From Alphaproteobacteria bacterium (lineage in GTDB: Bacteria > Pseudomonadota > Alphaproteobacteria > Puniceispirillales > UBA1172), in contig JADHOM010000007.1 in NCBI GenBank assembly GCA_016778985.1, forward strand, positions 1 through 64,000: DNA of 64,000 nt. The letters run 5' to 3'. Each line of letters begins with the position of its first letter. Within the stretch, counting starts at the first letter, position 1. Shown piece after piece: positions 31,430 through 52,064 of the stretch. The notes under the pieces were generated by a model. The model was not told where the DNA came from and did not search any database. It saw only the letters and a list, made by a program, of their open reading frames with translations. Position numbers and translations under genes: made by a program.

Positions 31430-33136
31430 GTGGGGGGGTCAATCTTGGACGCGATAACAGATGACAACGGAGTATGGAAATCGGCTAGAGGCAAGGGGCG
31501 TAAAACCCCAAAAGGTCGTCAGGTTGATGATCAGGCGTTAGCCGAGGTGCGTGCCCTATTAGGCGAAAGACCGCGCCGTCGTGATTTGCTGATAGAGTTT
31601 CTGCACCTTATCCAAGATAATTACGGCCATCTGAGCGTTCGCCATATGCATGCGCTGGCTGATGAATTACGGCTAGCCCAGACAGAAGTCTATGAAGTTG
31701 CAACATTTTATGCACATTTTGACGTTGTTGACGAGGGTCAGACGCCGCCTCCTGCCACGACTATTCGAGTCTGTGATTCGCTCTCATGTGAGTTGGCCGG
31801 CGCGCAAAATCTTATCAAGGCGTTGCAAGATGGGCTTGATCCATCAGAGGTACGGGTCTTGCGGGCGCCATGTATGGGGCGCTGTGATACGGCGCCAACG
31901 CTTGAAATTGGTCATAATCATATTGATCATGCGACCCTTGATGCGGTCAATGCTGCCATTGCTGATGATGACACGCATCCGCATATCCCAGAATATCAGA
32001 ACTTCACGATGTATTGCGCTGAAGGCGGGTATGAGAAGCTGCTTGAGTTGCGGCAGAACGGTAATTGGGAAGATGTGCAAGAACAGATTAATGAAAGCGG
32101 CTTGCGTGGATTGGGTGGCGCTGGCTTCCCATCTGGCCGTAAATGGGGGTTTGTTCGTGCCGCCGAAGGCACACGCTATCTCGCCGTCAATGGTGATGAG
32201 GGTGAGCCGGGGACATTCAAGGACCGCTATTATTTAGAGCGGACACCGCATCTCTTTCTTGAGGGCATGCTAATCGCAGCATGGGCGGTTGAGGCAGAGC
32301 AATGTTTTATTTACATGCGGGATGAATATCCGGCCGTTCTCCATATCTTGGCTGAGGAAATTCAGCGTTTGGTTGATGCTGGCATTGTTGCACCCGGATA
32401 TATTGATTTGCGGCGCGGGGCAGGGGCTTATATCTGCGGTGAAGAAAGTGCCATGATCGAATCCATCGAAGGCAAGCGCGGGTTGCCGCGCCATCGCCCG
32501 CCATATGTGGCGCAAGTTGGGCTGTTTGGTCGGCCAACGCTGGTTCATAATATTGAAACCTTATACTGGGTGGCACGAGTCTGTCGCGAAGGTGCGGAAA
32601 TCTTATCGTCTGTTGAAAAAAATGGCCGCAAAGGATTGCGCAGTTACTCTGTATCTGGGCGTATCGCAAAGCCGGGTGTATATTTACTGCCAGCCGGGTC
32701 AACAATTACCGATATCATAGAAGCCGCGGGCGGCATGCAAGATGGTCACGTCTTCAAAGCCTATCAGCCGGGTGGCCCGTCATCAGGGTTACTGCCAGCA
32801 ACTTTAAATGATGTGCCGCTAGATTTTGATACACTGCACCCGCATGGTAGCTTTATTGGATCAGCGGCGGTTGTTGTGTTATCTGATCAAGACAAAGCCA
32901 GAGATGCGGCGCTAAATATGCTGCGTTTCTTTGAGGATGAGAGTTGTGGGCAATGTACACCATGTCGGACAGGGTGCAGTAAAGCGGTACAATTGATGCA
33001 AGAGGACGCATGGGATAAGCCGCTTTTAGAGGATTTATGTCAGGTCATGAGCGATGCGTCTATTTGCGGTCTGGGGCAGGCGGCGCCGAATGCTATTCGA
33101 CTTACCATGAAACATTTTGATAGTGAAATTAGCTGA
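31430..33136 (+). CDS. fdh1B: NAD-dependent formate dehydrogenase beta subunit (fused NuoE/NuoF type)
   Basis: This 568-residue fusion transfers electrons from formate to NAD. The N-terminal part (about 1-155) is the NuoE/FdsG-like thioredoxin fold with 2Fe-2S ligands in CDSLSCELAG and APCMGRC. The rest is NuoF/FdsB-like: NADH site LRGLGGAGFPSGRKW, FMN site NGDEGEPGTFKDRYYLE and 4Fe-4S ligands in CGQCTPCRTGC. Fusion, size and order match Fdh1B of Methylobacterium, the partner of a W/Mo catalytic subunit. The start is a GTG followed by a run of seven Gs. A TTG at 31445 is the alternative. It lies 11 bp before the alpha subunit. Confidence 0.92.
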   Translation: MGGSILDAITDDNGVWKSARGKGRKTPKGRQVDDQALAEVRALLGERPRRRDLLIEFLHLIQDNYGHLSVRHMHALADELRLAQTEVYEVATFYAHFDVVDEGQTPPPATTIRVCDSLSCELAGAQNLIKALQDGLDPSEVRVLRAPCMGRCDTAPTLEIGHNHIDHATLDAVNAAIADDDTHPHIPEYQNFTMYCAEGGYEKLLELRQNGNWEDVQEQINESGLRGLGGAGFPSGRKWGFVRAAEGTRYLAVNGDEGEPGTFKDRYYLERTPHLFLEGMLIAAWAVEAEQCFIYMRDEYPAVLHILAEEIQRLVDAGIVAPGYIDLRRGAGAYICGEESAMIESIEGKRGLPRHRPPYVAQVGLFGRPTLVHNIETLYWVARVCREGAEILSSVEKNGRKGLRSYSVSGRIAKPGVYLLPAGSTITDIIEAAGGMQDGHVFKAYQPGGPSSGLLPATLNDVPLDFDTLHPHGSFIGSAAVVVLSDQDKARDAALNMLRFFEDESCGQCTPCRTGCSKAVQLMQEDAWDKPLLEDLCQVMSDASICGLGQAAPNAIRLTMKHFDSEIS

Positions 33137-33147
33137 GGAATTGATCA

Positions 33148-35943
33148 ATGCCTGATAGCCTCCCAAACAATACTGAAGTAAAAATGGTTTCCATCATGCT
33201 AGATGGTAAATCGGTTTCTGTTGCCGAAGGATCAACGATCTGGGAAGCCGCGCAAGCCGAAGGTAACATCATCCCGCATTTGTGTCATAAGCCTGAACCG
33301 GGGTATCGGACCGATGGGAATTGCCGCGCTTGCATGGTTGAAGTTGAGGGTGAGCGAACGTTGGTTGCATCATGTATTCGCTCAGTCCAGGACGGCATGG
33401 TCGTCAATACTGCATCGGAGAGGGCAGAAAAATCGCGTGCCATGATTGTTGAATTGCTGGCCGCCGATCAGCCCGAAGAAGCCCATGATGCGTCATCACA
33501 TTTTCTCACCATGATGGCAGCAAATAATGTCAGTGAGAGCCGCTTTCCATCAAAGTCTCCGGAAATGATCCCATTGCTTGATGACTCTCATGTTGCAATG
33601 CGAGTTAATCTTGATGCTTGTATTCATTGTAATCTTTGCGTTCGCGCTTGCCGTGAGGTGCAAGTCAATGATGTTATCGGTATGTCTGGTCGCGGCAATC
33701 ATGCCAAGATTGTCTTTGATATGGATGATGACATGGGGCAATCGACCTGTGTGGCTTGTGGGGAATGTGTTCAAGCCTGTCCAACAGGTGCCTTGATGCC
33801 AGCGACAGTTCTCGATAATGCCCAGTTGGGGGATAGCCAAGATATCGACAAAGAGGTGCAATCTGTTTGCCCATATTGTGGTGTTGGATGTCAGCTAAAC
33901 TTCAAAATTAAAGACGATAAGATTAAATATGTTGAAGGGGCGTCAGGGCCAGCAAATGAAAACCGGCTTTGTGTGAAAGGCCGTTTTGGTTTTGATTACA
34001 TTCATCACCCGCACCGTCTCACCAAGCCGTTGATCAGGCGTGATGATGCGCCGGCAAAGGGGTTGAATGTTGACCCTGCCTATCCGCTAAGCCATTTCCG
34101 TGAAGCTAGTTGGGAAGAAGCACTTGATTTTGCAGCTAAAGGCATGACAGATGCTAAAGCCAAGGCTGGTACGCAAGTTGCTGGCTTTGGCTCAGCGAAA
34201 TGTTCAAATGAAGAGGCGTATCTTTTCCAGCGCTTCATCCGTGAGGGCTTTGGTCATAATAATGTTGATCACTGTACACGGCTTTGCCATGCTTCGTCTG
34301 TTGCGGCACTTCTCGAAAATGTTGGGTCTGGTGCGGTAACGGCAACATTTAATGAAATTGAGAATGCAGATGTTGCCATCTTGATTGGCTGTAACCCTAT
34401 TGAAAATCACCCTGTTGCGGCGACCTATTTCAAGCAATTTGCCAAACGTGGCGGCAAGTTAATTGTCATGGACCCACGCGGCCAGGGTTTGAGTCGCCAT
34501 GCTACGCATATGCTGCAATTCCGTCCGGGGTCTGATGTGGCGATGCTAAACGCTATCATGCATGTGATCGTTGAAGAAAATCTATACGATCAGCAATATA
34601 TTGATGGTTTTACCGAAAACTGGGAAGACATGAAATCGCATTTGAAGGCGTTTAGCCCCGAAGATATGTCTGAGTTTTGTGGAATTGACGCGAATACCTT
34701 GCGGCAAGTTGCAAGGGATTTTGCTACCGCTAAGGCCGGAATGATATTCTGGGGTATGGGTATCTCACAGCATATCCACGGCACCGATAATTCACGCTGT
34801 TTGATCTCGCTTGCATTAATGTCTGGTCAGGTTGGGCGTCCGGGGACAGGGCTGCATCCTCTGCGTGGTCAAAATAATGTGCAAGGTGCATCTGACGCTG
34901 GTTTGATTCCAATGTTCTTGCCCGATTATCAAAGCGTTACTGATGATGGTGTGCGGAGCGCCTTCAATGATATCTGGGAGACTGATAATATTGCCGCAGA
35001 AAAAGGCCTGACTGTGACAGAGATTATGGATGCTGTTCATGATGGTGATATTTCGGCCATGTATATTCTGGGTGAAAATCCAGCTATGTCTGACCCCGAT
35101 GTTGATCACGCCCGCGACGCTTTGGCGAAACTTGATCATCTGGTGGTGCAGGATATTTTCCTGACAGAAACGGCTAATTATGCCGATGTGATTCTGCCAG
35201 CCTCAGCTTGGGCAGAAAAAACCGGAACAGTCACTAACACAAACCGGCAAGTGCAAATGGGGCGGAAAGCTGTTGATGCCCCTGGTGAAGCCAAAGAAGA
35301 TTGGTGGATCACGGTTGAACTGGCCAAGCGGATAGGTCTTAACTGGACATATCAGCATCCAAGTGAAGTGTTTGCTGAAATGAAGAAATCCATGGCGTCG
35401 CTTAATAATATTACCTGGGATCGCCTTGAGAAGGAAAATGCTGTTACCTATCCATCTTTGTCCCCCGAAGACCCCGGGCAGGCCATTGTTTTTGGTGATA
35501 GCTTCCCACGGCCAAATGGCAGAGCAAGATTCACACCAGCAAATATCATTGCGCCTGCGGAAACGCCTGATGCAGAATATCCAATGATCATGACAACAGG
35601 CCGTCAGCTTGAGCATTGGCATACCGGTTCCATGACACGCCGGGCAACCGTACTCGATGTGATTGAGCCGGAGGCAAATGCCTCCTTGCATCCTAAAACC
35701 TTGCGTCGGCTTGGTGTCGATGCAGGCGAGATGGTGACAATTTCAACCCGTCGAGGTTCTATTGATATTATGGCAAGAGCAGACCGCGCGGTCGCCGAAG
35801 ATATGGTATTTGTCCCCTTCGCTTATGTTGAGGCGGCAGCTAATATCCTGACTAATTCGGAACTTGATCCATATGGAAAGATTCCAGAGTTTAAGTTTGC
35901 TGCCTGTCAGGTGATCAAAGCACTGGAAACAGCGGCCGAATAA
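33148..35943 (+). CDS. fdh1A: NAD-dependent formate dehydrogenase catalytic (alpha) subunit
   Basis: This 931-residue molybdo- or tungsto-enzyme oxidises formate to CO2. The N-terminus carries a 2Fe-2S domain (CHKPEPGYRTDGNCRAC), two ferredoxin-like 4Fe-4S clusters (CIHCNLCVRACREV and CVACGECVQACPTGA), then the FDH 4Fe-4S motif CPYCGVGCQ and the bis-MGD catalytic domain. The metal ligand is Cys in DHCTRLCHASS, so no selenocysteine is needed. No Tat signal is present, so the enzyme is cytoplasmic. Together with the fused beta subunit it matches the FDH1 type, which can also reduce CO2. It supplies NADH from formate made in the neighbouring oxalate pathway. Confidence 0.94.
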   Translation: MPDSLPNNTEVKMVSIMLDGKSVSVAEGSTIWEAAQAEGNIIPHLCHKPEPGYRTDGNCRACMVEVEGERTLVASCIRSVQDGMVVNTASERAEKSRAMIVELLAADQPEEAHDASSHFLTMMAANNVSESRFPSKSPEMIPLLDDSHVAMRVNLDACIHCNLCVRACREVQVNDVIGMSGRGNHAKIVFDMDDDMGQSTCVACGECVQACPTGALMPATVLDNAQLGDSQDIDKEVQSVCPYCGVGCQLNFKIKDDKIKYVEGASGPANENRLCVKGRFGFDYIHHPHRLTKPLIRRDDAPAKGLNVDPAYPLSHFREASWEEALDFAAKGMTDAKAKAGTQVAGFGSAKCSNEEAYLFQRFIREGFGHNNVDHCTRLCHASSVAALLENVGSGAVTATFNEIENADVAILIGCNPIENHPVAATYFKQFAKRGGKLIVMDPRGQGLSRHATHMLQFRPGSDVAMLNAIMHVIVEENLYDQQYIDGFTENWEDMKSHLKAFSPEDMSEFCGIDANTLRQVARDFATAKAGMIFWGMGISQHIHGTDNSRCLISLALMSGQVGRPGTGLHPLRGQNNVQGASDAGLIPMFLPDYQSVTDDGVRSAFNDIWETDNIAAEKGLTVTEIMDAVHDGDISAMYILGENPAMSDPDVDHARDALAKLDHLVVQDIFLTETANYADVILPASAWAEKTGTVTNTNRQVQMGRKAVDAPGEAKEDWWITVELAKRIGLNWTYQHPSEVFAEMKKSMASLNNITWDRLEKENAVTYPSLSPEDPGQAIVFGDSFPRPNGRARFTPANIIAPAETPDAEYPMIMTTGRQLEHWHTGSMTRRATVLDVIEPEANASLHPKTLRRLGVDAGEMVTISTRRGSIDIMARADRAVAEDMVFVPFAYVEAAANILTNSELDPYGKIPEFKFAACQVIKALETAAE

Positions 35944-37655: not shown

Positions 37656-38720
37656 ATGAAAATTTTAATTCTTGGTGCATCATATGGGTCACTACTCTCA
37701 ACGAAATTGTTAATGGCAGGTCACGATGTGACTTTGGTATGCCGCTCGGCTTCTGCAAATCTGATTAATACTAAAGGCACCGAGGTGCGGATTAAACTGC
37801 GTGATGAGGATGCGCACCGCATTATCATGTCAGATGATCAGCCCGGCCGTTTAGACGCGACAACGCCTGAGCAAGCCAGACCAGAAGATTATGACTTGAT
37901 TGGTTTAGCCATGCAGGAACCACAATATTCTTCACCAGCGGTTGCCGGCTTAATGAAGCGCATTGCTGATGCCCAAAAACCATGCCTGTCGATTATGAAT
38001 ATGCCGCCTTTAGCCTTCCTTAAGCGTATCCCTGCTTTGGCTGATGCTGATCTCACCTCATGCTATGATGATGCCAGTGTTTGGATGAACTTTGATCCCG
38101 GTCTTATCTCGCTATGTAGCCCTGACCCGCAAGCCTTCCGTCCTCCTGAGGAGGCGAGCAATGTTCTGCATGTTGGGCTGCCGACGAACTTCAAGGCCAG
38201 CACATTTGCCTCAGACGAACATAACGCTATGCTCAAGACTTTAGCCGAAGATATTGATCAGGTTCGGATTGAAGGCAAGGATGTTCCGGTTAAGCTCCGC
38301 GTATTTGATTCGCTTTTTGTTCCGATGGCTAAATGGTCAATGTTAATGACGGGTAATTACCGTTGTGTTCGCGAGCATGATATTCAACCTATTCAAGCCG
38401 CTGTCCATGCTGATATTGAGACAGCCGAGCAGATGTACAGATGGGTTGATAATTTGGCACAAGAACTTGGTGCAGATGCAAGTGATCAAGTGCCTTTTGA
38501 AAAATATGCCGCTGCCGCAAAGCAGCTTCTAAAGCCATCATCTGTGGCAAGGGCCATTGATGGTGGCACGACTAAGGTTGAGCGTGTTGATCGCATGATC
38601 CAGATTATTGGGCGCCACCTTAATATGTTTAATCCAACTGTTGACAGCATTGTTGCGACAGTTGATCAGCGGCTGGCAGAAAATGCCGAAATCGTAGAGC
38701 AGTCGGCTAAATCAGCATAA
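37656..38720 (+). CDS. Ketopantoate-reductase-fold enzyme, putative oxalyl-CoA reductase (PanE2-like)
   Basis: This 354-residue NAD(P)H-dependent reductase has the ApbA/PanE fold. The N-terminal Rossmann motif is GASYGS. The catalytic Lys-Asn pair is visible in AKWSMLMTGNYR. It is longer than housekeeping PanE (about 300) and no pantothenate genes are near. In Methylobacterium a PanE paralogue, PanE2, was identified as the oxalyl-CoA reductase that makes glyoxylate during oxalate growth. Here the gene sits between formate dehydrogenase and the oxc-frc operon and shares a promoter element with the TTT transporter, so the same role is inferred. AAGGAGTC precedes the ATG. A different 2-oxoacid substrate cannot be excluded. 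Confidence 0.72.
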   Translation: MKILILGASYGSLLSTKLLMAGHDVTLVCRSASANLINTKGTEVRIKLRDEDAHRIIMSDDQPGRLDATTPEQARPEDYDLIGLAMQEPQYSSPAVAGLMKRIADAQKPCLSIMNMPPLAFLKRIPALADADLTSCYDDASVWMNFDPGLISLCSPDPQAFRPPEEASNVLHVGLPTNFKASTFASDEHNAMLKTLAEDIDQVRIEGKDVPVKLRVFDSLFVPMAKWSMLMTGNYRCVREHDIQPIQAAVHADIETAEQMYRWVDNLAQELGADASDQVPFEKYAAAAKQLLKPSSVARAIDGGTTKVERVDRMIQIIGRHLNMFNPTVDSIVATVDQRLAENAEIVEQSAKSA

Positions 38721-38849: not shown

Positions 38850-39752
38850 TTAACAATTTAACAGCGCTACCAGCGTATCCCCTAAGCTTGCAGGTGAGGG
38901 TGATACTTTGACCCCTGCTGCCTCAAGTGCTTCTATTTTGGCATCCGCGCCACCTTTGCCACCTGAGATAACGGCGCCAGCGTGACCCATTGTGCGGCCG
39001 GGCGGTGATGTTCGGCCAGCAATAAATCCAACCATAGGTTTCTTGCGGCCTTTTTTAGCTTCTGCTTTGATAAAGTCAGCGGCCTCTTCTTCGGCAGAAC
39101 CGCCAATCTCACCGATCATAATAATGGATTCGGTTTCATCATCATCGAGGAACATATCAAGTACATCAATAAACTCAGTGCCTTTGACAGGATCACCGCC
39201 AATTCCCACAGCTGTGGTTTGGCCTAGCCCTGCCATAGTGGTCTGATAGACGGCTTCATATGTTAATGTCCCTGAACGCGATAATACCCCGACTGAACCG
39301 CGGCGGAAGATACTGCTCGGCATGATGCCAATTTTGCATTCGCCGGGGGTAAGTAGGCCTGGGCAATTCGGGCCAATAAGCCGTGATGATGAGGCGTCAA
39401 GACGTTCTTTAACGCGAACCATATCAAGAACGGGAACGCCTTCGGTTATGCAAGTGATTAGCGGGATGCCAGCATCTATGGCTTCGATAATCGCATCTGC
39501 GGCGCCTGCTGGCGGGACATAGATTACCGAGGCGTTGGCGCCGGTCGCGGCTTTTGCTTCCGCTACTGAGCCAAAGATAGGGAGTTGTTTGCCGCTATCG
39601 CTGCCCCATTCTTCACCGGCTTTTTTAGGATGCGTACCAGCGACCATCTGGGTGTCGTGATAGGCTAGGGCTTGTTCAGTGTGAAATGTGCCTGTTTTTC
39701 CAGTCAGACCTTGAACAATTATCTTCGTCTCTTTGTTAATTAAAATCGCCAT
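38850..39752 (-). CDS. sucD: Succinyl-CoA ligase alpha subunit
   Basis: This 300-residue subunit carries the CoA-binding Rossmann domain ([16 protein letters not shown]) and the phosphorylated active-site His in [31 protein letters not shown] is also present. An insertion around [14 protein letters not shown] makes it slightly longer than the E. coli protein. It interconverts succinyl-CoA and succinate with nucleotide phosphorylation. It lies 10 bp after sucC and is convergent with the PanE2-like gene. It is not next to the other usual TCA-cycle genes in this window. Confidence 0.94.
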
Positions 39753-39762
39753 GGTCTTGCCC

Positions 39763-40959
39763 CTAATTTCCTTTAACCGCTTTTACAATTTTTTCCGCCG
39801 CATCGTTAAGATCATCGGCGGCAATCAGATCAAGCCCGCTTGCCTCAAGAATAGCCTTGCCTTCGGCGACCTTTGTACCTTCTAGGCGCACAACCAATGG
39901 CACTGCAAGTGAGATATCCTTAGCTGCTTGGACAACGCCCTCAGCAATCACATCACATCGCATGATGCCGCCAAAGATATTGACTAAAATGCCTTTGACA
40001 TTAGGGTCTGCGGTAATGATCTTAAAGGCGGCGGTCACCTTTTCGGTGGTGGCACCGCCCCCAACGTCCAGAAAGTTAGCTGGCTCCGCACCATAAAGCT
40101 TGATGATATCCATGGTCGCCATAGCTAGGCCAGCGCCATTCACCATACAGCCAATGTCACCATCAAGAGCTATATAGGCGAGATCATATTTTGACGCTTC
40201 CAGCTCTTTGGGGTCTTCTTCGGTTATATCACGCAATTCAACAATGTCAGGATGCCGGAACAAGGCGTTGTTATCAAAAGACACTTTCGCATCTAGCACC
40301 TGAACATGGTTGGCTGCCGTGATTATTAATGGGTTAATTTCCAAAAGGCTCATATCCTTTTCAACAAAGGCTTTATAAAGCGTTTTGAAGAGCGCCATGC
40401 CCTCGTCTTTGGCTGTGCCAGTCATGCCAAGCGCGTCAGCAAGCGTTGCTGCATCATTATCCGTGCAGCCAGTGCTATGATTGATAGGCACGGTATGTAT
40501 CTTTTCCGGCGTGTCATGAGCAACGGTTTCAATGTCCATGCCGCCTTCGGTTGAGACAACAAAAGCAACCTTGCCAACCGCCCGGTCGACCAGGATAGAT
40601 AGATAGAGTTCTTTTTCAATGTCAGCGCCAGCTTCTATATAGAGCCGATTAACGGCCTTGCCGCCATCACCGGTTTGTGCGGTAACAAGTGTGTTTCCAT
40701 ACATTTCGTGGGAATTGCCTTTAGCTTCATCAGCAGAAAAGCTAACCCGAACTCCACCTTTGGCATCTGCTGACAGCTCTTTGAACTTGCCTTTACCTCT
40801 GCCGCCAGCGTGTATCTGGCTTTTTACAACCCAAACTGGGCCGGGCATAGAATCCACAGCTTGATCAATCTGATCGGCGGTTGTGATCACGGCGCCGTTA
40901 GCAACAGGGGCGCCGTAGCTCTTTAATATGGCTTTGGCTTGATACTCATGAATATTCAT
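39763..40959 (-). CDS. sucC: Succinyl-CoA ligase beta subunit
   Basis: This 398-residue subunit has the ATP-grasp domain ([14 protein letters not shown] near residues 45-60, [10 protein letters not shown] near 205) and a C-terminal domain with the [13 protein letters not shown] motif. The KGKFKE/AKGGVRV pattern is that of alphaproteobacterial succinate ligases rather than malate thiokinase MtkA. It is divergent from the GntR-Oxc gene, across a 325-bp region holding candidate GntR operators, so it might share regulation. Confidence 0.95.
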
Positions 40960-41284: not shown

Positions 41285-43951
41285 GTGAGTAAGCTTAAAC
41301 CAATCTCTAATGACTTTACGATAAAAGATCATCTTTATGGTGTTCTTCGTGATCACATTCTTGGGATTGACATCTATGGGTCAGATGATGATTTGCGCCT
41401 CGATGAGCGACAGCTAGCGGCACAGCTTGGGGTGTCGCGGACGCCGATTAGAGAAGTCCTCGCACGACTGGCTCAAGATGGGCTGGTTGAAATTATCCCG
41501 CGCAAGGGCGTCTTTATTCACCGCAAGACAATGACAGAGATACTTGAAATGGTGATCACATGGGCGGCTCTGGAAAGCATGGCGGCGCGTTTGGTTACTG
41601 AAAAAGCCAGCGATGATGATCTGCTATTGCTTCGGCGATTCGCGCAAGGCAGCATAGGCGAAAGTAATTCCATTCCGATTAGTGAATATTCAGATGCCAA
41701 TGTCACATTCCATCAAACAATTTTAGAATTATCAGGTTGTACGCTTCTGAAAACCACAACAGATCAATTATTTATGCAGATGGCGGCGATCAGACGCCGT
41801 GCCATTCATGAAGATGATCGGGCGGTTAAATCGGTTTCTGATCACCTGCAAATAATTGAAGCGTTAGAGGCCAGAGATGCTGACCTTGCGGCGACGTTAG
41901 TCCGTGAGCATACCATGCGTCTGCATGATCATATTAAATTACGCTGGACAGTCTTTTCTAATGGCGATGATGGCTCAGACGAAGCTAATGCTGATGCCAG
42001 TTCCAGTTCCAGTTCTGATAAAGCTATCCCTGAAATGACCTTTGATAGCGATCAGGATAAAATTGTCAGTGATATTGGTGCGGTATCGGCCAACCATAAT
42101 AACGCCCAGGCTTACCCACGGGCCACCATTGAGGCCGCATCTCACCCACAGTCTTTTTCTAAACCACAAACTATGACACCAAATGATAAAAAAGAGGAGC
42201 CTTCTATGTCTGATCAGGCGATTACTGAACAGGATACCGATGTAGCACATTTGACAGATGGATTTCATCTTGTTGTTGATGCTTTAAAACTTAATGATAT
42301 CAACACTATATACAATGTCCCTGGAATACCAATTACTGATCTTGGGCGGATTGCACAGGCTGAGGGCATGCGCGTTATCTCATTTCGTCATGAACAGCAT
42401 GCCGGTTACGCTGCGTCTATCGCGGGTTATTTAACCAAAAAGCCTGGGGTGGCGCTTACCGTGTCGGCGCCGGGGTTTCTCAATGGTCTAACGGCATTGG
42501 CTAATGCCACAACAAATTGTTTTCCTATGATTTTGATCAGCGGTTCATCAGAACGGGAGATTGTTGATCTTCAGCAAGGTGATTATGAGGAAATGGATCA
42601 GCTTGCTATTGCCAAGCCATTATGTAAGGCGGCGTTCCGTGTCTTGCATGCAGAAGATATTGGTATTGGCATAGCAAGAGCCATAAGAGCGGCATGTTCG
42701 GGCCGTCCAGGCGGCGTATATTTAGACCTTCCGGCGCAACTGTTCTCACAAGTTATGGATGCCGGGAAGGGCAAAGCATCGTTGGTCAAAGTTATTGATC
42801 CAGCCCCCGCACAATTGCCTGCGCCAGAAGCGATCAACCGTGCGATAGACGTCTTAAAAAGCGCGAAAAAGCCGTTAATGATTATTGGTAAAGGCGCCGC
42901 TTATGCTCAAGAAGATGAGCTGATTAAAACTTTTGTTGAAAACAGCGGCATGCCATATCTGCCAATGAGTATGGCAAAGGGGCTACTGCCTGATGATCAT
43001 CCGCAATCGGCGGCAGCAGCGCGGTCACTGGTTCTGAAAGAAGCTGATGTTGTTATGCTGGTCGGAGCACGGCTTAACTGGTTATTATCTCATGGTAAGG
43101 GCAAAACATGGGGTGAACCGGGGGCAAAAACCTTTATCCATATAGATATTGAACCACGTGAAATGGACAGCAATGTTGAAATTGCCGCGCCGCTTGTTGG
43201 TGATATCGGCTCTTGCCTGCGCTTGATGAATGATGCGCTGGGATCAAAATGGCAGAAGCCACCGGCTGACTGGATTGATGCTATTAATGAAAAGAAATCG
43301 GTCAATCTGGAAAAAATGGCATCTAAGTTGATGAGCAATGCGGTGCCGATGGATTATCATGGTGCGCTAGGTTCTTTGCGTCAGGTGGTTAAGGATAATC
43401 CTGATGTTATTCTGGTCAATGAAGGCGCCAACACGCTTGATTTTGCGCGCAGCATTATTGATATCTATAAACCGCGCCATCGGGTTGATGTCGGTACATG
43501 GGGGATCATGGGTATTGGTCAAGGGGCGTCAGTTGCGGCGGCTATTGAAACTGGCAAGCAGGTTCTGGCGATCGAAGGTGATAGTGCATTTGGTTTCTCA
43601 GGCATGGAGATTGAAACGATTTGCCGATACAACCTGCCGGTCTGTATTGTTGTCTTTAATAATAACGGGATTTACCGAGGCACGGATAAAAACCCAACAG
43701 GTGGTGATGATGTTGCCCCAACCGTTTTCGTTAAAGATTCGCGTTATGACATGATGATGCAAGCCTTTGGCGGTGTGGGCGTTTATGCAACTAATACGGA
43801 TGAGCTTGGCCGTGCGGTGAGAGAGGCCTTGGCATCAGGCAAGCCAACCCTTGTTAATGCCATTATTGATGAGGGTGCAGGTACCGAAAGCGGCCGCATT
43901 GGCAATCTCAATCCGCAAAGTATTGTGATGCAGAATAAGGCAAAATCCTAA
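41285..43951 (+). CDS. oxc: GntR (FCD) regulator fused in frame to oxalyl-CoA decarboxylase
   Basis: A single 888-codon frame joins two proteins. Residues 10-75 are a GntR winged helix ([19 protein letters not shown]) and 85-225 an FCD ligand-binding domain. Residues 226-307 are a low-complexity acidic/Ser-rich linker including six Ser. Residues 308-888 are a full oxalyl-CoA decarboxylase: TPP-activating Glu in [29 protein letters not shown], and TPP/Mg site [13 protein letters not shown]...NNNGIYRG. Oxc converts oxalyl-CoA to formyl-CoA and CO2. Within the linker, GAGGAG precedes an in-frame ATG at 42206 that begins a normal-length (581-residue) Oxc, so free Oxc may also be made. The GntR start is a GTG. 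It is first in the frc-fhs operon. Confidence 0.93.
42194..42199 (+). promoter_or_regulatory. Internal ribosome binding site for stand-alone Oxc
   Basis: GAGGAG lies 6 nt before the in-frame ATG at 42206 inside the GntR-Oxc reading frame. It is as good as other ribosome sites in the window, so the fusion and free Oxc could both be produced. Confidence 0.7.
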
Positions 43952-44035
43952 GCGGATTAGAGCCAGATTGATAGATAATTGTGATGACCAGAATGGTTAA
44001 CAGCCTAATGGTTAATAGAATGGATGGTAAGTAAA

Positions 44036-45298
44036 ATGATGAAAGCATTAGAAGGAATAAAAGTTCTCGACTTTACCCATGTGCAGTCAGGGCCAACTTG
44101 CACGCAGATACTGGGCTGGTTTGGCGCTGATGTGATCAAGGTGGAGCGTCCTGGTGTCGGTGATGCAACGCGAAAACAGCTTGTTGATAAGCTGGGTGCA
44201 GACAGTCTTTATTTTACCATGCTCAATCATAATAAACGGTCTATTGAGTTGAACTCAAAGAACGAGACTGGCAAAGAAGTGCTAACAAGACTGATCCAAG
44301 AATGTGATGTCTTGGTTGAAAACTTTGCCCCCGGTGCGTTGGACAGAATGGGCTTTGGCTGGGATCGCGTTCATGAGATTAATCCGCGTATTATCATGGC
44401 GTCAATCAAGGGTTTTGGACCAGGTAAATACGCTGATTGTAAGGTTTATGAGAATGTCGCGCAATGTGCTGGTGGCTCTGCCTCAACCACCGGTTTTCTG
44501 GATGGCCCGCCATTGGTAACAGGGGCGCAAATCGGCGATTCAGGCACCGGACTGCATCTTTGTCTTGGTATTGTCACGGCGCTTTTCCAGCGTGAAAAGA
44601 CAGGTCTTGGTCAGCGTGTGAGTGTTGCTATGCAAGATGCTGTGCTTAATTTGGCGCGGGTGAAAATGCGTGATCAACAACGTCTTGATGCTGGGCCTCT
44701 TAAAGAATATTCGCAATTTGGTGAGGGCATCCCATTTGGTGAGGCAACGCCGCGCGCGGGTAATGATTCGGGTGGTGGTCAGCCTGGCCGTATTTTAAAA
44801 TGTAAGGGCTGGGAGACCGATCCTAATGCCTATACGTATTTTATCATTCAAGCGGCTGTGTGGGAAAAAGTATGTGATCTGATTGGTGAGCCTGATTGGA
44901 AAACCGCGGAAGGCTTTGCGACGCCGCCTGAACGTCTCGATAAACTGAACCAGATTTTTGAGCGTATTGAAACTTGGACAATGACTAAATCAAAGTTTGA
45001 AGTGATGGATTTATGTAATCCGCTTGATATTCCTGTTGGACCTATTCTGTCGATGAAAGAAATTGCCGAAGACAACGGGCTATATGAAACAGGGACATTG
45101 GTGAAAGTCGATCATCCTGAACGTGGAGAGTATATTTCTGTTGGCTGCCCAATTAAACTATCGGCAAGTCCTGTTGAGGTATCAAGGTCACCGTTGTTAG
45201 GGGAACATACGTTAGAAATATTAAAAGATGTTTTGCATTATGATGATAATGAGGTTGAGAATATTGTGTCATCAGGTGCTGTTGGCGAAGCCAAATAA
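44036..45298 (+). CDS. frc: Formyl-CoA:oxalate CoA-transferase
   Basis: This class III CoA-transferase moves CoA from formyl-CoA to oxalate, giving oxalyl-CoA for Oxc and releasing formate. About 420 residues, as in E. coli Frc. The N-terminus [20 protein letters not shown] and [18 protein letters not shown] are close to known Frc proteins. The catalytic Asp is in [19 protein letters not shown], and the Gly-rich active-site loop [10 protein letters not shown] is present, which separates Frc from carnitine CoA-transferases. Three in-frame ATGs (44024, 44036, 44039) are possible. It lies about 85 bp after oxc. Confidence 0.94.
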
Positions 45299-45325
45299 CC
45301 TGCTGATCAAAAGGGGATAATAATA

Positions 45326-46240
45326 ATGCGTATCGTATTACACGGACAACAAGCCTTTGGCGAAGCGGTATTAAATAAACTGCTGGAAAGAGGCGAAGAT
45401 GTGGTTGCTGTTTGTTGTGCTCCAACGAAAGAAGGCAAGCCCGAAGACCCGCTAGCTCTCTTAGCCAAGGATAAAGGCATCCCGCTGCATCAGCCAGATT
45501 CATGGAAAACACCAGAAGCGCTTGAATTAATGCAGTCTTTCAAATCTGATGTTTGTTTAATGGCATATGTGTTGAAGTTTGTCCCTGAGGCGGTGCGCGA
45601 TGCGCCGACTTACGGCACCTTTCAATATCATCCATCGCTTTGTCCTCAGCATCGTGGCCCATCATCTATCAATTGGCCGATTGCAATGGGTAAAACCCAT
45701 ACTGGATTGACTATTTTCTGGCCAGATGACGGCCTTGATGAAGGGCCTATTATGCTACAGAAAACATGTCCTATTGGCCCTGATGAAACGCTGGGTGATA
45801 TTTATTTCAAAAAGCTGTTCCCGATGGGCGTGGATGCGATGATGGAAGGCCTTGATATGGTTAGGGCCGGTGTCATTATTAAGCATGATCAGCGGCTTGA
45901 AGATGGCACCTATGAAGGTTGGTTCAATAAGGATTGCGCCAAGCTCGATTGGACAAAACCGGTTGCCGAAACCTATAACACAATCCGTGCTGCCAATCCG
46001 GCGCCGGGTGCGTGGACAACACTGAATGGTGCTGAGGTAAAAATTTACGACGCTGCTAGAATGGATGGTGATGGCACTCCCGGTGAGATTATAGACATCA
46101 CAGAAGAGGGGGTGATCGTCCAATGTAATGGTGGGCGTATTCTGATAAAACGTGTTCGACCCGAAGGAAGTGGTAAAATTCCAGCTTCGGAATGGGCATC
46201 AATGGTCTCTCTTCAAAATGGTGCAACTCTTGGTCAATAA
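45326..46240 (+). CDS. Formyltransferase resembling the hydrolase domain of 10-formyl-THF dehydrogenase
   Basis: This 304-residue protein matches the N-terminal hydrolase domain of ALDH1L1-type 10-formyl-THF dehydrogenase. The catalytic His is in YHPSLCPQHRGPSSINW and the catalytic Asp in FWPDDGLDEGPI, followed by a C-terminal Fmt-like barrel. The carrier-protein and aldehyde-dehydrogenase domains are absent. In that family the isolated domain hydrolyses 10-formyl-THF to THF and formate. Lying between frc and fhs, it could balance formyl-THF and formate. Direct use of formyl-CoA would be new and is only a guess. AAGGGG precedes the ATG. Confidence 0.8.
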   Translation: MRIVLHGQQAFGEAVLNKLLERGEDVVAVCCAPTKEGKPEDPLALLAKDKGIPLHQPDSWKTPEALELMQSFKSDVCLMAYVLKFVPEAVRDAPTYGTFQYHPSLCPQHRGPSSINWPIAMGKTHTGLTIFWPDDGLDEGPIMLQKTCPIGPDETLGDIYFKKLFPMGVDAMMEGLDMVRAGVIIKHDQRLEDGTYEGWFNKDCAKLDWTKPVAETYNTIRAANPAPGAWTTLNGAEVKIYDAARMDGDGTPGEIIDITEEGVIVQCNGGRILIKRVRPEGSGKIPASEWASMVSLQNGATLGQ

Positions 46241-46264: not shown

Positions 46265-47941
46265 GTGAGCTACAAATCTGATATCGAAATCGCCCGCGAA
46301 GCTAAAAAGAAACCAATCCAAGAAATTGGTGAGAAGCTTGGCATCCCTTATGAACATCTGTTGCCTTTCGGTCATGATAAGGCAAAGGTCTCTGAAAACT
46401 TTATCAAAAGCCTTGATGATCGTGAAAATGGTAAGCTGATTCTGGTGACGGCTATTAACCCAACGCCTGCGGGTGAGGGTAAAACCACGACCACTGTTGG
46501 GCTTGGTGATGGGCTTAATAGGGTCGGCAAAAAAGCCGCCATTTGTATTCGTGAAGCGTCGCTTGGGCCTTGCTTTGGCATGAAGGGTGGCGCCGCAGGT
46601 GGCGGGTATTCTCAGGTTGTGCCAATGGAAGAAATGAATCTGCATTTTACAGGTGATTTTCATGCCATTACATCAGCCCATAACTTGCTGGCGGCATTGA
46701 TTGATAACCATATTTACTGGGGCAATGAGCAGGGTATTGATGTCCGGCGTGTCGCTTTCCGACGTGTCCTTGATATGAATGATCGGGCTTTGCGCCAGAT
46801 TAATTGTAGCCTTGGCGGTGTTGCCAACGGCTTCCCGCGTGAAGCTGGCTTTGATATCACCGTTGCATCAGAAGTCATGGCTATTCTCTGCCTAGCGAAT
46901 GATCTGGCTGATCTTGAACGCCGTCTGGGTGATATTATTGTTGCCTATCGCCGTGACCGAAGCCCTGTTTTCTGCCGTGACATTAAGGCTGATGGTGCGA
47001 TGACGGTTCTATTGCAACAAGCTATGCAGCCTAATCTGGTGCAGACTTTGGAAAATAATCCGGCTTTTGTACATGGTGGCCCTTTTGCTAATATTGCGCA
47101 TGGCTGTAATTCGGTTATCGCAACCAAAACAGCGCTTAAACTCGCTGACTATGTTGTGACAGAAGCAGGATTTGGTGCTGACCTTGGGGCGGAAAAGTTC
47201 CTTGATATTAAATGTCGGCAAGCTGGATTGAAGCCAGATGCGGCCGTTATCGTAGCGACGGTTCGGGCCATGAAAATGAACGGCGGCGTCGCCAAGGCGG
47301 ATCTGGGTGAGGAAAATGTTGAAGCGGTGAATGCCGGTTGTCCTAATCTTGGGCGGCATATGGAAAACATTGGTAAGTTTGGTGTTCCTGCGGTTGTTGC
47401 TATCAACCATTTTTACAGTGATACCGATGCTGAGATCGCCGCCCTGCAAGATTTTGTTGAAAGTCAGGGTGGTCAGGCTATTGTTTGTCGGCACTGGGCG
47501 GATGGAAGCGCCGGTACAGAAGAACTGGCAAATACCGTTGTCAAAATGATTGAGACAACGCCGTCACAATATAAACCGCTTTATCCGATTGAAATGAGCT
47601 TGTTTGAGAAAATCGAAACGATTGCCAAAGAAATCTATCGTGCCAATGAAGTCGTTGCTGATCAAAAGCTGCTTGATCAGCTCAAATCTTGGGAAGAGCA
47701 AGGCTACGGCAAATTGCCTGTATGTATGGCAAAAACTCAATACAGTTTCACAACAGACCCGAATAAGCGAGGAGCACCGACTGGTCATAGTCTGCCCATT
47801 CGTGAGGTCAGATTATCCGCAGGCGCAGGCTTTGTTGTGGTAGTCTGTGGTGAGATTATGACAATGCCTGGTCTGCCTAGAGTGCCAGCAGCAGAAAGTA
47901 TCCATATTAATAATGATGGTCTGATTGAAGGATTATTCTAA
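46265..47941 (+). CDS. fhs: Formate-tetrahydrofolate ligase
   Basis: This enzyme makes 10-formyl-THF from formate, THF and ATP, feeding C1 units to biosynthesis. 558 residues, the usual size. The P-loop is [16 protein letters not shown], and the family signature [24 protein letters not shown] follows. The start is a GTG, with AGGAA upstream. It is 24 bp after the formyltransferase and 15 bp before the universal stress protein. It converts formate released by Frc into the folate pool. Confidence 0.97.
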
Positions 47942-47956
47942 AAACCGGAGGCGGCA

Positions 47957-48811
47957 ATGATAAATAGGGTAGTTGTTCCTGTTAGAGATGATGGCAACGC
48001 AGAATGTGTTTTGCGTCACGCTATATCTCTGGCCAAAAATGTCAACGCCCATATTATTGTAACGCATTGCCGCCTGCGACCTGAAGACATGCTACCTTTT
48101 GGCGTTCCTATGTCGCGTGACATGAAGAAGCAAATTATGACGCAATCAGCATCTGTGCTTAATTTAGCTGAAACAGTCATGCGCCAAGAGGTTGAGGCAA
48201 TTTGTGCCTCTGCTGGCGTTCAAATGTCAGATAAGCCTATCCCTCATGCCGTTACCGCGCAGTTTATTGAAGCCGAAGGCAGACAAGTTGACGTGGTGCG
48301 GCGGCATGGCCGTCTTGCTGATATTGTGGTTGTAGCAAAACCAGAGATTGATCGTAATTTGGGCACAAATACGCTCAAAGCAGCTCTCTTTCATACTGGC
48401 AGACCTGTTTATATGTGTGATGGCTCAATGCCAGATGAAGTTAAGGGGTTTGATCAGATCGCCTTATGCTGGGATGGCTCTATAGAGGCCACTCGTGCTG
48501 TTGCGCAATCATTATGGCTAATGAAAATTGCTAAGAAAGTGAATATCTTAACGGTCGAGGCAGAGCATGTTCAGATCCGTCCAGAAGAGCTTCAATTATA
48601 TCTCAGCGAGCATGACATCAATTCTGATATTATTATGGTTAAGTCGTCTGGTTCAACTGGCGCGTCCTTAATGAAAGTAAGTGAAGCATGTGGTGCTGAG
48701 ATAATTATTTTAGGTGCCTATGGTAATAATCAGTATTTTGAGAGAGTATTAGGAGGAGTGACTCAACATTTTGTTGATCATGCATCACGACCTTTGGTCT
48801 TGGTGCACTAG
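47957..48811 (+). CDS. Universal stress protein, tandem UspA-like
   Basis: This 284-residue protein has two UspA-type alpha/beta halves. The second ends in the ATP-binding pattern LGAYGNNQYFERVLGGVTQH followed by RPLVLVH. The first half is more diverged and lacks a clear nucleotide loop. Such proteins bind nucleotides and often accompany transporters or central metabolic enzymes. CGGAGG precedes the ATG. It closes the oxc-fhs operon before the TTT transporter promoter. Confidence 0.85.
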   Translation: MINRVVVPVRDDGNAECVLRHAISLAKNVNAHIIVTHCRLRPEDMLPFGVPMSRDMKKQIMTQSASVLNLAETVMRQEVEAICASAGVQMSDKPIPHAVTAQFIEAEGRQVDVVRRHGRLADIVVVAKPEIDRNLGTNTLKAALFHTGRPVYMCDGSMPDEVKGFDQIALCWDGSIEATRAVAQSLWLMKIAKKVNILTVEAEHVQIRPEELQLYLSEHDINSDIIMVKSSGSTGASLMKVSEACGAEIIILGAYGNNQYFERVLGGVTQHFVDHASRPLVLVH

Positions 48812-48943: not shown

Positions 48944-49930
48944 ATGAGCATTTTGAAAAAACTAGCCACTGGCTTTGTTGCTGCTGGCATGACTATTTCG
49001 GCAATGTCTGGATTTGCACTTGCAGATGGGCATGGCTGGAAGCCAAATAAGCCGATTGATTTCATAATTATGGCTGGTAAAGGTGGTGGTGCCGATAAAA
49101 TGGCGCGTCTGATGCAGGCTATCGTTGAAAAAGAAGGCTTGGCAGAGCGTCCATTGGTTCCTACCAATAAATCAGGTGGTTCAGGGGCTGAGGCATTAAT
49201 CGCCGCTAAATCAGCAAATGATCCTGATCATACGATCATGGTGACACTGAACTCATTCTACACAACACCTCTGCGTCAGCCTGGTCTTGATGTTGATGTT
49301 ATGACATTTGCACCGGTTGCTCGGATGGCTGAAGATACTTTCCTTTTGTGGGTTCACAAGGATAGCGGTATCACATCATTCGAACAGTGGTTAGAAGTAG
49401 CAAAATCAGAAGGCAAAAACTGGGTTATGGGCGGAACAGGTTCAAACTCTGAAGACAATATTATCACTGACTTCTTGAATGATAATTTTGGCCTTAGCAT
49501 GAAGTATATCCCATACAAAGGCGGGGGTGCTGTTGCCAAGGACGTTGCTGGTAAGCAGATTAATTCATCTGTTAACAACCCATCAGAAGCTCTTGGTTTC
49601 TATGAGTCTGGAGACATGATTGCCCTTGTTGCCTTCACTGATGAGCGTTTGCCAATGTTCCCTGATGTCCCGACACTTCGTGAAAAAGGTGTTGATTTCA
49701 GCTATTTCATGCAGCGTTCCGTTGTTGGCGCACCTGGCATGTCTGCCGAAGCAGAAGCTTATTATTCTGGCCTGTTTGAGAAGGTTTATAATTCAGCAGA
49801 CTGGCAGGATTATAAGAGCAAAAAGTCACTGATGGGTGATCTCATGTCAGGTGATGAGCTAATGGCATATTGGAAGGTGCAGCGCGCTAACCATGAAACC
49901 ATTTTGCGTGCTTCTGGTGCAATTCAATAA
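48944..49930 (+). CDS. tctC: Tripartite tricarboxylate transporter substrate-binding protein
   Basis: This 328-residue periplasmic binding protein of the TctC/Bug family has a signal peptide ending near SGFALADG. The mature domain starts with WKPNKPIDFIIMAGKGGGADKMAR, the typical ligand-loop region, followed by YIPYKGGGAVAKDVAGKQI. GAGGAGG precedes the ATG. It is followed by TctB and TctA genes, the normal order. Bug proteins bind di- and tricarboxylates or small acids. Oxalate is suggested by the locus, not by the protein itself. Confidence 0.93.
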   Translation: MSILKKLATGFVAAGMTISAMSGFALADGHGWKPNKPIDFIIMAGKGGGADKMARLMQAIVEKEGLAERPLVPTNKSGGSGAEALIAAKSANDPDHTIMVTLNSFYTTPLRQPGLDVDVMTFAPVARMAEDTFLLWVHKDSGITSFEQWLEVAKSEGKNWVMGGTGSNSEDNIITDFLNDNFGLSMKYIPYKGGGAVAKDVAGKQINSSVNNPSEALGFYESGDMIALVAFTDERLPMFPDVPTLREKGVDFSYFMQRSVVGAPGMSAEAEAYYSGLFEKVYNSADWQDYKSKKSLMGDLMSGDELMAYWKVQRANHETILRASGAIQ

Positions 49931-49968: not shown

Positions 49969-50499
49969 ATGCGAAGAGCTGAAATTGTAACAGCGTTTAT
50001 TTTGGGAATATTCTCTATATACCTTATGTGGAAAAGCGGGGACCCACCTGCTTGGAATCCAAGCATTCCTCGCTTTGCTAATATCGGTTTTGATGAAACC
50101 GGAACACCAGGCAGCGGCTTTTGGCCGTTCTGGCTCGGTTTCATCATGCTGATATGCACGATCTGGATAGGCATTAACTGGGTGCTGAAACGGTCTCCAC
50201 AATCCGTATCTGAAGAACCTTTCCTTGATGATTTTGGAAAGAAAATGTTTCTTACAGTCGGGGGAGGCTTAATCGGTTTTCTGGTCATGATACATCTTGC
50301 CGGTTTCTACGGTGCGATTTTCCTATTCATGGTTTACTACCTAAAGTTTTTAGGACGGCATACGTGGTTCTTAACCTTAACGATTTCAACTTCTTTGCCG
50401 ATTGTTAGTTTCTTCTTTTTTGATGTGGCGATGCGAATTGTCTTACCAAAAGGGTATCTGGAGCCATTATTTATTCCGCTCTATGATATCTTTCTTTAA
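49969..50499 (+). CDS. tctB: Tripartite tricarboxylate transporter small permease TctB
   Basis: This 176-residue membrane protein has four hydrophobic helices and the TctB-family GTPGSGFWPFWLGFIMLI segment near residues 43-62. It pairs with TctA in the inner membrane. GGGGGGACG lies about 5-12 nt upstream. It is 38 bp after tctC and 38 bp before tctA. Confidence 0.88.
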   Translation: MRRAEIVTAFILGIFSIYLMWKSGDPPAWNPSIPRFANIGFDETGTPGSGFWPFWLGFIMLICTIWIGINWVLKRSPQSVSEEPFLDDFGKKMFLTVGGGLIGFLVMIHLAGFYGAIFLFMVYYLKFLGRHTWFLTLTISTSLPIVSFFFFDVAMRIVLPKGYLEPLFIPLYDIFL

Positions 50500-50537: not shown

Positions 50538-52055
50538 ATGGAAGTGCTAGGTCATTTATTTGAAGGAATATTAATAGCGTTAGAGCCGGTGAATTTAGGC
50601 CTAGCCATCATTGGTGTTATTATTGGTCTGTTTGTTGGCGCCATGCCGGGGCTGGGATCGGTTAATGGTGTTGCTATCTTGCTTCCATTTACGTTTGTCA
50701 TTCAGGGGTTTACAGGTGGTGCTACGTCACCAATGATCTTTCTGGCCTCGATCTATTATGGGGCTATGTATGGTGGGGCGATATCATCGATAACGCTTGG
50801 CATACCGGGGGCGTCAACGGCGGTCGCAACCACATTTGATGGCCGGCCATTAGCGATGAAGGGGCAGGCGCATGTTGCCTTGATGGCGGCGGCCTTAGCT
50901 TCATTTATCGGTGCTACGATTTCAAATATCTTATTTACCGGTTTTGCCCCGCTATTGGCGTCGGTTGCCTTGAACTTCGGTAATCCGGAGATTTTTGCCC
51001 TCATGCTTCTGGCATTTGCTACATTTGCAGGACTTGGTGGTGATGATTTTCCCAAAACAATATTTTCTATCTGTTTCGGGCTGGCACTATCAGCGGTCGG
51101 GTTTGATATTATTTCAGGTGAGCCAAGGCTGATTTTCTTTGATATCCAAGGCTTTTCGCATGGGATTCGCTTCCTTGTTCTGGCTATTGGTATTTATGGA
51201 ATTGGTGAGATGCTGTGGACGATTAACACGTCACGTTATGGCTCATCTATGTCGAATGTTGAGGTTAACTTTGCCAGTATCGTTTATGCCCTCAAGCAGT
51301 TTAAGGGCGCGTGGAAAGGTACATTAATCGGTTCATTTATCGGCTTTTTTGTTGGTATTTTGCCTGCCGCTGGTGCAACCCCTGGATCACTCATGGCATA
51401 CGGCGTGACCAAGATGACTTCAAGAGACCCGAGCAAATATGGCAAAGGTGTTGTTGACGGTGTTGCTGCGCCTGAGGCGGCGAATAACTCTGCTTCCACA
51501 GGGGCTATGTTGCCGATGATGACGCTTGGAATTCCAGGCTCACCAACAACCGCGGTTCTGCTGGCAGGGATGGTTATCTGGGGTCTGCAGCCTGGGCCAT
51601 TGCTGTTTACTAATCAGCCTGATTTTGTTTGGCCATTAATTGGCTCATTCTATATCTCAAACTTTGTTGCCGTAGCAGTCAATATTATGTTCATCCCAAT
51701 TTTCCTTTGGATGTTACGGATGCCATTCACTATCCTTGCGCCAACGATTTTTGTTTTGTCGCTAGTTGGGACTTATGCCGCGTATCTGGATATGTTTGAT
51801 GTCTGGCTGATGGTATTAGTCGGCTTTGGTGGCTTCTTTATGCGGATATTGGATTATCCTGTTGCGCCGGCAGTTCTGGCTATTGTTCTTGGCCCTATTG
51901 CGGAGCCAACATTACGTCAAACATTGCTCCAATATGAAACCTTTACAATCTTCTTTACCAGGCCGATAGCAGGGCCAATTACCATTTGTGCTGTTATTTT
52001 GATCTTTTTGCCTGCTATCCAACTGATCTTAAGGAAGATGCGTAGCAAAGCATAA
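50538..52055 (+). CDS. tctA: Tripartite tricarboxylate transporter large permease TctA
   Basis: This 505-residue permease has about twelve hydrophobic segments. The two family repeats are clear: GAMPGLGSVNGVAILLPFTF near residue 35 and GILPAAGATPGSLMAYGVTK near 275. GVAAPEAANNSASTGAMLPM and LGIPGSPTTAVLLAGM are further family signatures. Transport uses an ion gradient with TctB and TctC. The next gene starts about 10 bp after the stop, implying one transcript. Confidence 0.95.
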   Translation: MEVLGHLFEGILIALEPVNLGLAIIGVIIGLFVGAMPGLGSVNGVAILLPFTFVIQGFTGGATSPMIFLASIYYGAMYGGAISSITLGIPGASTAVATTFDGRPLAMKGQAHVALMAAALASFIGATISNILFTGFAPLLASVALNFGNPEIFALMLLAFATFAGLGGDDFPKTIFSICFGLALSAVGFDIISGEPRLIFFDIQGFSHGIRFLVLAIGIYGIGEMLWTINTSRYGSSMSNVEVNFASIVYALKQFKGAWKGTLIGSFIGFFVGILPAAGATPGSLMAYGVTKMTSRDPSKYGKGVVDGVAAPEAANNSASTGAMLPMMTLGIPGSPTTAVLLAGMVIWGLQPGPLLFTNQPDFVWPLIGSFYISNFVAVAVNIMFIPIFLWMLRMPFTILAPTIFVLSLVGTYAAYLDMFDVWLMVLVGFGGFFMRILDYPVAPAVLAIVLGPIAEPTLRQTLLQYETFTIFFTRPIAGPITICAVILIFLPAIQLILRKMRSKA

Positions 52056-52064
52056 TGCAGGGTG

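Follow-up and report, generated by a model that had tools for sequence, protein, structure and literature searches.

In ALDH1L1, a phosphopantetheine arm carries the formyl group away from the N-terminal domain (PMC8748788), and the isolated hydrolase domain was proposed to work with mercaptoethanol as its thiol (PMC4388273). The Asn that is crucial in FMT, ArnA, and GART is replaced in FDH by Ile104, and the I104N mutant keeps less than 10% of the activity (PMC4388273). HypX was proposed from its structure to formylate CoA from 10-formyl-THF, and its authors pointed out that CoA can take the role of phosphopantetheine, the end of CoA being the same phosphopantetheine (PMC6802093). In studies of oxalate metabolism, formyl-CoA, with a half-life of 1.9 h, was less stable than the three other acyl-CoAs tested, and E. 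coli was proposed to prime its cycle via YfdE, which is encoded next to oxc-frc (PMC3720670). The open-access literature on formyl-CoA, oxalate, or lyases together with folate or formyltransferases, to which the search was confined with subscription papers outside it, contained no report of the protein described here, and an earlier note on this DNA had called a formyl transfer from formyl-CoA to THF unreported in this setting; the HypX proposal was the sole one to connect formyl-THF with CoA.

The window, which is the whole stretch of 64,000 nucleotides analyzed, came from an alphaproteobacterial genome of 2.1 Mb that is 98.6% complete. Its oxalate operon was arranged in the order GntR-oxc (in one frame), frc, FTH, fhs, usp, tctC, tctB, and tctA (Table 1), where FTH denotes the formyltransferase gene of this study. 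Both oxc and frc exceeded their equivalog cut-offs, as in a canonical oxc-frc oxalate operon. Within the annotated plasmid collection, a near relative was present on the La6 plasmid pLA6_002 alone and lay in the same gene order (sucCD / ydfH-oxc-frc-'fmt_2'-fhs-usp-tct). The GntR regulator and oxc shared one frame with no stop between them, in which the window stood alone among the 101 loci compared. A possible start of its own for oxc, ATG 42206, was found after AAAAGAGGAG; this internal start suggests that the two parts are translated separately, but a true regulator-enzyme fusion may be present instead. TctA together with TctBC is presumed to be a carboxylate importer, and the formate dehydrogenase upstream of the operon is the other outlet for formate. 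The sucCD pair, which was also located beside the same operon in La6, L052, L055, L056, L060, and L061, is probably an accessory CoA ligase and not a TCA enzyme, as indicated by the sucC_4/sucD_4 label on the La6 plasmid. A protein of 354 aa at 37656-38720 (+) had no Pfam or NCBIfam match and began like a Rossmann protein, with weak similarity to 2-dehydropantoate reductase (E 0.2); it was conserved at ~70% ahead of the same operon in L052, L055, L056, and L060, and its position makes it a candidate oxalyl-CoA reductase (PanE2-like). After tctA, a protein of 587 aa at 52062-53825 (+) had no NCBIfam match and was 40-52% conserved in seven related operons.

Table 1. Features of the oxalate operon and its surroundings (positions in the window; scores in bits against the model cut-off)
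Feature	Position	Strand	Evidence or remark
NAD-type formate dehydrogenase (NuoEF-like 31430-33136, alpha 33148-35943)	31430..35943	+	TIGR01591 752.7 vs cut-off 666
sucD-sucC, succinate-CoA ligase-type pair	38850..40959	-	divergent from the operon
GntR/FCD regulator and oxalyl-CoA decarboxylase (oxc)	41285..43951	+	one open frame, 888 aa; TIGR03254 984.5 vs 739.4
frc, formyl-CoA:oxalate CoA-transferase	44024..45298	+	TIGR03253 689.5 vs cut-off 504.2; glycine-rich loop SGGGQ and GDSGTG
Ribosome-binding-like purine-rich AAGGGGA before the FTH start	45311..45317	+	read from sequence
FTH, stand-alone ALDH1L1-hydrolase-type formyltransferase	45326..46240	+	304 aa; domain, fold, and residue evidence
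fhs, formate-tetrahydrofolate ligase	46265..47941	+	PRK13505 933.9 vs cut-off 652
Universal-stress-protein family gene (usp)	47957..48811	+	recurrent at the same place
TctC-type binding protein	48944..49930	+	
TctB-like small membrane subunit	49969..50499	+	position and conservation
TctA large membrane subunit	50538..52055	+	

The FTH frame was intact from its ATG start to its TAA stop and was separated by 27 bp from frc upstream and by 24 bp from fhs downstream. Pfam analysis revealed only Formyl_trans_N (E 2e-25) and Formyl_trans_C (E 1e-21), both of which were present in 36 of 36 aligned relatives; no carrier-protein or aldehyde-dehydrogenase domain was found in FTH by Pfam, which separates it from full-length ALDH1L1. 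The top sequence match in the PDB was the ALDH1L1 hydrolase domain (phmmer E 3e-55, ~33% identity), with FMT (E 2e-39) and ArnA behind it and HypX far lower. Using the AlphaFold model of FTH (pLDDT 95.4), Foldseek also ranked the ALDH1L1 domain first by E-value (top 4qpd, TM 0.88), closely followed by FMT. The earlier note had read the gene from the DNA alone as a stand-alone hydrolase part of 10-formyl-THF dehydrogenase, placed between frc and fhs and with its catalytic His and Asp intact. The phmmer, fold, and Pfam results agreed on this domain, the 304 residues held its two subdomains only, both neighbors scored over their NCBIfam cut-offs, and the two catalytic residues, His102 and Asp138, were present.

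An analysis of the sequences revealed that the triad His102/Ser104/Asp138 of FTH was equivalent to His106/Ser108/Asp142 of ALDH1L1 and was invariant in 109 of 109 sequences, with the surrounding loop fully conserved as well; there were also conserved Lys/Arg positions. Position 100 was Gln in 91 of these sequences and Cys in 18, and in none of them was it Asn. The corresponding codon is located at 45623-45625 of the window, and the Cys variant was scattered over OXC, TPPB, and unlinked contexts. The equivalent residue, as read from the sequences, is Asn in FMT and E. coli PurU and Ile in ALDH1L1 and in the N domain of Bradyrhizobium HypX. FTH did not possess the Ile that marks the ALDH1L1 type at position 104; the Asn was lost likewise, but the residue in its place was Gln or Cys. 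Judged by sequence, FTH is a homologue of the ALDH1L1 hydrolase domain and no strict member by residue 100. On the residues compared here, the family members with an actual or proposed phosphopantetheine-type thiol acceptor have lost the Asn, and FTH groups with them. A tree built without HypX placed FTH and ALDH1L1-N on one side and FMT on the other with 100/100 support, and was compatible with ALDH1L1-N being either sister to FTH or nested inside it. HypX was left out because, when added, it formed a very long branch that could not be placed usefully.

The existing gene names were each rejected for FTH: fmt, owing to a TIGR00460 score of 142.7 bits against the cut-off of 201.5 and Gln-Tyr-His where the FMT paralogues have Asn; purU, as FTH had no TIGR00655 match over the cut-off, PurU has an ACT domain that FTH does not, and its Asn is missing in FTH; arnA, for scores below every NCBIfam equivalog cut-off; and hypX, for lack of the C-terminal enoyl-CoA-hydratase-like domain. 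The fold that FTH has in common with FMT and the fmt label of the La6 relative would fit a formyltransferase acting on another acceptor (an amine or a protein-bound phosphopantetheine) or a second methionyl-tRNA formyltransferase, but such a role is quite improbable. The source genome encodes three Formyl_trans proteins, FTH included, and by length and residues the two other Formyl_trans_N proteins appear to be PurN and FMT, so that genes of both kinds are already at hand. FTH also fell under every equivalog cut-off of NCBIfam, the Asn of amine formyltransferases was replaced in all 109 sequences, and the operon showed no gene for a carrier protein.

The distribution of FTH was surveyed in 289 evenly drawn genomes of the class, in which orthologues were taken at 48% identity or more; the next matches fell to ~34% and were FMT. 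FTH was present in 21 of the 289 genomes, belonging to 15 families. The oxc gene was found in 12 genomes, 9 of them with FTH, and a second ThDP lyase, TPPB, in 13, 10 of them with FTH, and no genome contained both lyases. The association of FTH with oxc or TPPB was strong (Fisher p = 1e-22, with the 289 genomes treated as independent and phylogeny ignored). The last two FTH genomes, G281 and G288, had an OXC/HACL-like enzyme (524-531 bits), and an OXC, TPPB, or OXC/HACL-like lyase was present in 21 of 21. About half of the FTH orthologues in the class sample did not adjoin frc, and the link to the lyase persisted in genomes where FTH was not beside it (G071, G104, G107, G120, G122, G187, G210, and G226). 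Unlinked FTH in one family (L037:2446-2769, L044:9266-9592) was located directly after a gene that by eye looked like a pterin-4a-carbinolamine dehydratase. FTH was dispensable for oxalate use, since oxc genomes without it were common (several large-genome genera, plus G007, G127, and G283). The fhs gene accompanied FTH in 20 of 21 genomes (p = 5e-7, with the 289 genomes again treated as independent).

These distributions also bear on a plain 10-formyl-THF hydrolase, that is, a PurU substitute balancing the folate pool and regulated against running versus fhs. The nearest homologue is called a hydrolase, no PurU match above the threshold was found in the source genome, and PurU occurred in 0 of 21 FTH genomes compared with 65 of 268 others (p = 0.006). 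However, this exclusion mostly reflected fhs, as the counts among fhs-positive genomes were 0/20 and 16/109 (p = 0.13), and a plain hydrolase would leave the tie to formyl-CoA lyases and frc unexplained. The Asn kept in PurU was missing in FTH, and even the ALDH1L1 domain was proposed to act through a thiol (PMC4388273). We therefore consider a plain hydrolase unlikely.

The surroundings of FTH were compared in 101 loci, consisting of the 21 from the class sample and 80 from named GTDB contigs that were ranked by similarity and were thus biased to close kin. Where the flank was long enough, 73 of 93 loci had frc no more than 300 bp from FTH, and fhs adjoined FTH in 45 of 76. Upstream sequence of 3.3 kb or more was available in 78 loci; OXC occurred in 32 of them, TPPB in 28, and both together in none. 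The two lyases were exchanged in one slot of the arrangement GntR-(OXC or TPPB)-frc-FTH-fhs. The common factor of the FTH operons is formyl-CoA, not oxalate. The supposition that the gene always accompanies oxc-frc failed, with 12 of the 21 FTH genomes lacking a true oxc. An association mainly with genomes lacking oxc, which the earlier note had set against its own proposal, was thus literally observed, but 10 of these 12 genomes carried TPPB and the other 2 the OXC/HACL-like enzyme. The choice of formyl-CoA rather than formate as the partner was upheld by the lyase in every FTH genome and by the adjoining frc.

TPPB shared ~25% identity with OXC, and the copies in its carriers shared 65% or more with one another. 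Its closest solved structures were OXC/HACL/HICL enzymes, and its nearest NCBIfam model, acetolactate synthase, stayed below the cut-off. The OXC motifs GIP, Y-E, and NNGI were replaced in TPPB by GGH, LQD, and NNxxxNxxR, and the Actinomycetospora 2-hydroxyisobutyryl-CoA lyase 7pt3 has GGH, LQD-PH, and NNxxxNxxR as TPPB does. 2-Hydroxyisobutyryl-CoA lyase makes formyl-CoA (PMC7176365). The glycine-rich loop, described as a hallmark of formyl-CoA:oxalate transferases (PMC3720670), was kept in 29 of 33 frc partners of TPPB. From these motifs we infer that the TPPB operons may run a frc-type cycle on another acid, in which formyl-CoA would charge the acid and the lyase would give formyl-CoA back; the TPPB-frc-FTH operons would then mark a further pathway beside oxalate. 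A GntR-TPPB-frc-FTH(-fhs) operon with Tct transporters was widespread (L032, L033, L034, L039, L050, L051, and 28 of L052-L131).

On these grounds, we consider it reasonably probable that FTH is a 10-formyl-THF/CoA formyltransferase catalyzing 10-formyl-THF + CoA <=> THF + formyl-CoA. The fold, residues, operon, and genome association were observed, and from them we infer both CoA as the substrate and the reaction itself. FTH stands alone beside formyl-CoA enzymes, and free CoA is therefore its simplest partner. The enzyme would use the chemistry of the ALDH1L1 hydrolase, with His102-Asp138 as catalytic residues and Ser104 orienting His102, and free CoA would replace the phosphopantetheine arm of ALDH1L1 as thiol acceptor or donor. 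It would thus link two pools: formyl-CoA, which OXC or the HICL-like TPPB makes and FRC uses, and the one-carbon folates, which FHS serves. One argument against the transferase is that most features of FTH are also those of a domain with 10-formyl-THF hydrolase activity in vitro. The same association with formyl-CoA producers would also be expected of a formyl-CoA hydrolase that detoxifies this labile thioester (half-life 1.9 h, PMC3720670) in the same active site without folate and guards the CoA pool. Such an enzyme is very improbable, since the triad of the folate family and its surrounding loop were fully conserved, and the co-occurrence with fhs and two shared reading frames pointed to folate.

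These shared frames were found in two Hyphomicrobiaceae MAGs, in which FTH and FHS occupied one open frame (L079:8180-10816, 879 aa; L080:9001-11649, 883 aa) with Pro/Ala/Lys-rich linkers at the junction. An internal GTG was kept in both frames, with a clear SD-like sequence in L079, so the two parts may be translated separately or may form a single polypeptide. The genus g341, with small genomes of 1.7-2.1 Mb, and G624 carried FTH and oxc without fhs. The g341 loci L172-L175 read oxc-frc1-(PAS-like protein in 3 of 4)-frc2-FTH, with two different frc copies side by side and no fhs in the genome. The OXC of g341 gave a higher score against the 7ayg OXC than against that of O. formigenes, and an identity of g341 with O. 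formigenes was rejected on this ground.

The transferase may run in either direction. In the forward direction, formyl-CoA would pass its formyl group to THF, and the formyl group of oxalate would enter folate without free formate; this transfer is likely downhill thermodynamically by our own estimate, would be useful for assimilation, and is favored by the fhs-less g341 and G624. In reverse, fhs and FTH would make formyl-CoA from formate, ATP, and CoA and would prime or refill the frc/oxc cycle, which would lose its CoA charge whenever formyl-CoA is hydrolyzed or oxalyl-CoA is withdrawn. The frequent position of fhs beside FTH and the two shared frames favor this direction, as do the low stability of formyl-CoA and the priming by YfdE proposed for E. 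coli (PMC3720670). Draining formyl-CoA would stall the cycle because the cycle only hands CoA on, and the genomes without fhs are compatible with priming because 10-formyl-THF exists without fhs. The reverse direction fits the frc cycle no less well than the forward one. The transfer from formyl-CoA to THF put forward in the earlier note therefore stood as a link between formyl-CoA and folate, supported by the context, but not in its preference for direction. The ATP-wasting cycle that it had feared beside fhs would vanish with the proposed folate/CoA transferase, because fhs and FTH in reverse would make formyl-CoA from formate. The E. coli oxc-frc operon, which has yfdE, contained no FTH, and a search for YfdE found no genome over the cut-off, among FTH carriers and non-carriers alike. 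As a tentative and rather doubtful extension, FTH with fhs may act in reverse as a two-step ATP-dependent formyl-CoA synthetase via folate that charges an autocatalytic CoA-transfer cycle common to the OXC pathway and the HICL-like TPPB pathway. Folate would then activate formate so that a thioester can be formed, and a CoA-dependent ancestor would have given rise to the ALDH1L1 domain of animals, the tethered phosphopantetheine having taken the place of CoA.

The fold family of FTH is known, and its activity and pathway role would be new. If the proposal is true, a gene publicly labelled fmt supplies the missing connection of formyl-CoA with folate-based one-carbon metabolism, providing a route for carbon from oxalate or 2-hydroxyacids to the one-carbon pool, or a start of the cycle in organisms without yfdE. 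It would also offer a natural folate-linked enzyme for synthetic C1 pathways based on formyl-CoA, a simple stand-alone protein with which to probe the HypX proposal, and a hint at the role of the ALDH1L1 hydrolase domain before its fusion to a carrier protein.

Among the known systems, the N-domain of ALDH1L1 shared with FTH the fold, both subdomains, the triad, the loss of Asn, Lys284, and the signatures LFPxGV, TYE, and IRGxxxxPGAW. Unlike ALDH1L1, FTH stands alone, with neither a carrier to take the formyl group nor a dehydrogenase domain to oxidize it; it has Gln or Cys at position 100 where ALDH1L1 has Ile, and it is found in formyl-CoA operons. The N-domain of HypX/HoxX belongs to the same family (Foldseek E 4e-21) but was 19-25% identical to FTH, continues into an enoyl-CoA-hydratase-like domain with a proposed role in making CO, has lost the Ser of the triad that FTH retains as Ser104, and belongs to hydrogenase maturation. 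FMT resembled FTH in its two-domain architecture and ~30% identity, and the La6 relative is publicly labelled fmt_2; FMT, however, has the Asn, is missing the ALDH1L1-type signatures, and formed a separate branch (100/100). PurU would carry out the same reaction only if FTH were a plain hydrolase, and it keeps Asn-Ile-His and never co-occurred with FTH in the 289 genomes. YfdE, the acetyl-CoA:oxalate CoA-transferase of E. coli, is unrelated to FTH as a protein, but it provides the oxalate cycle with its first acyl-CoA (PMC3720670) and is in this respect a possible functional counterpart of FTH.
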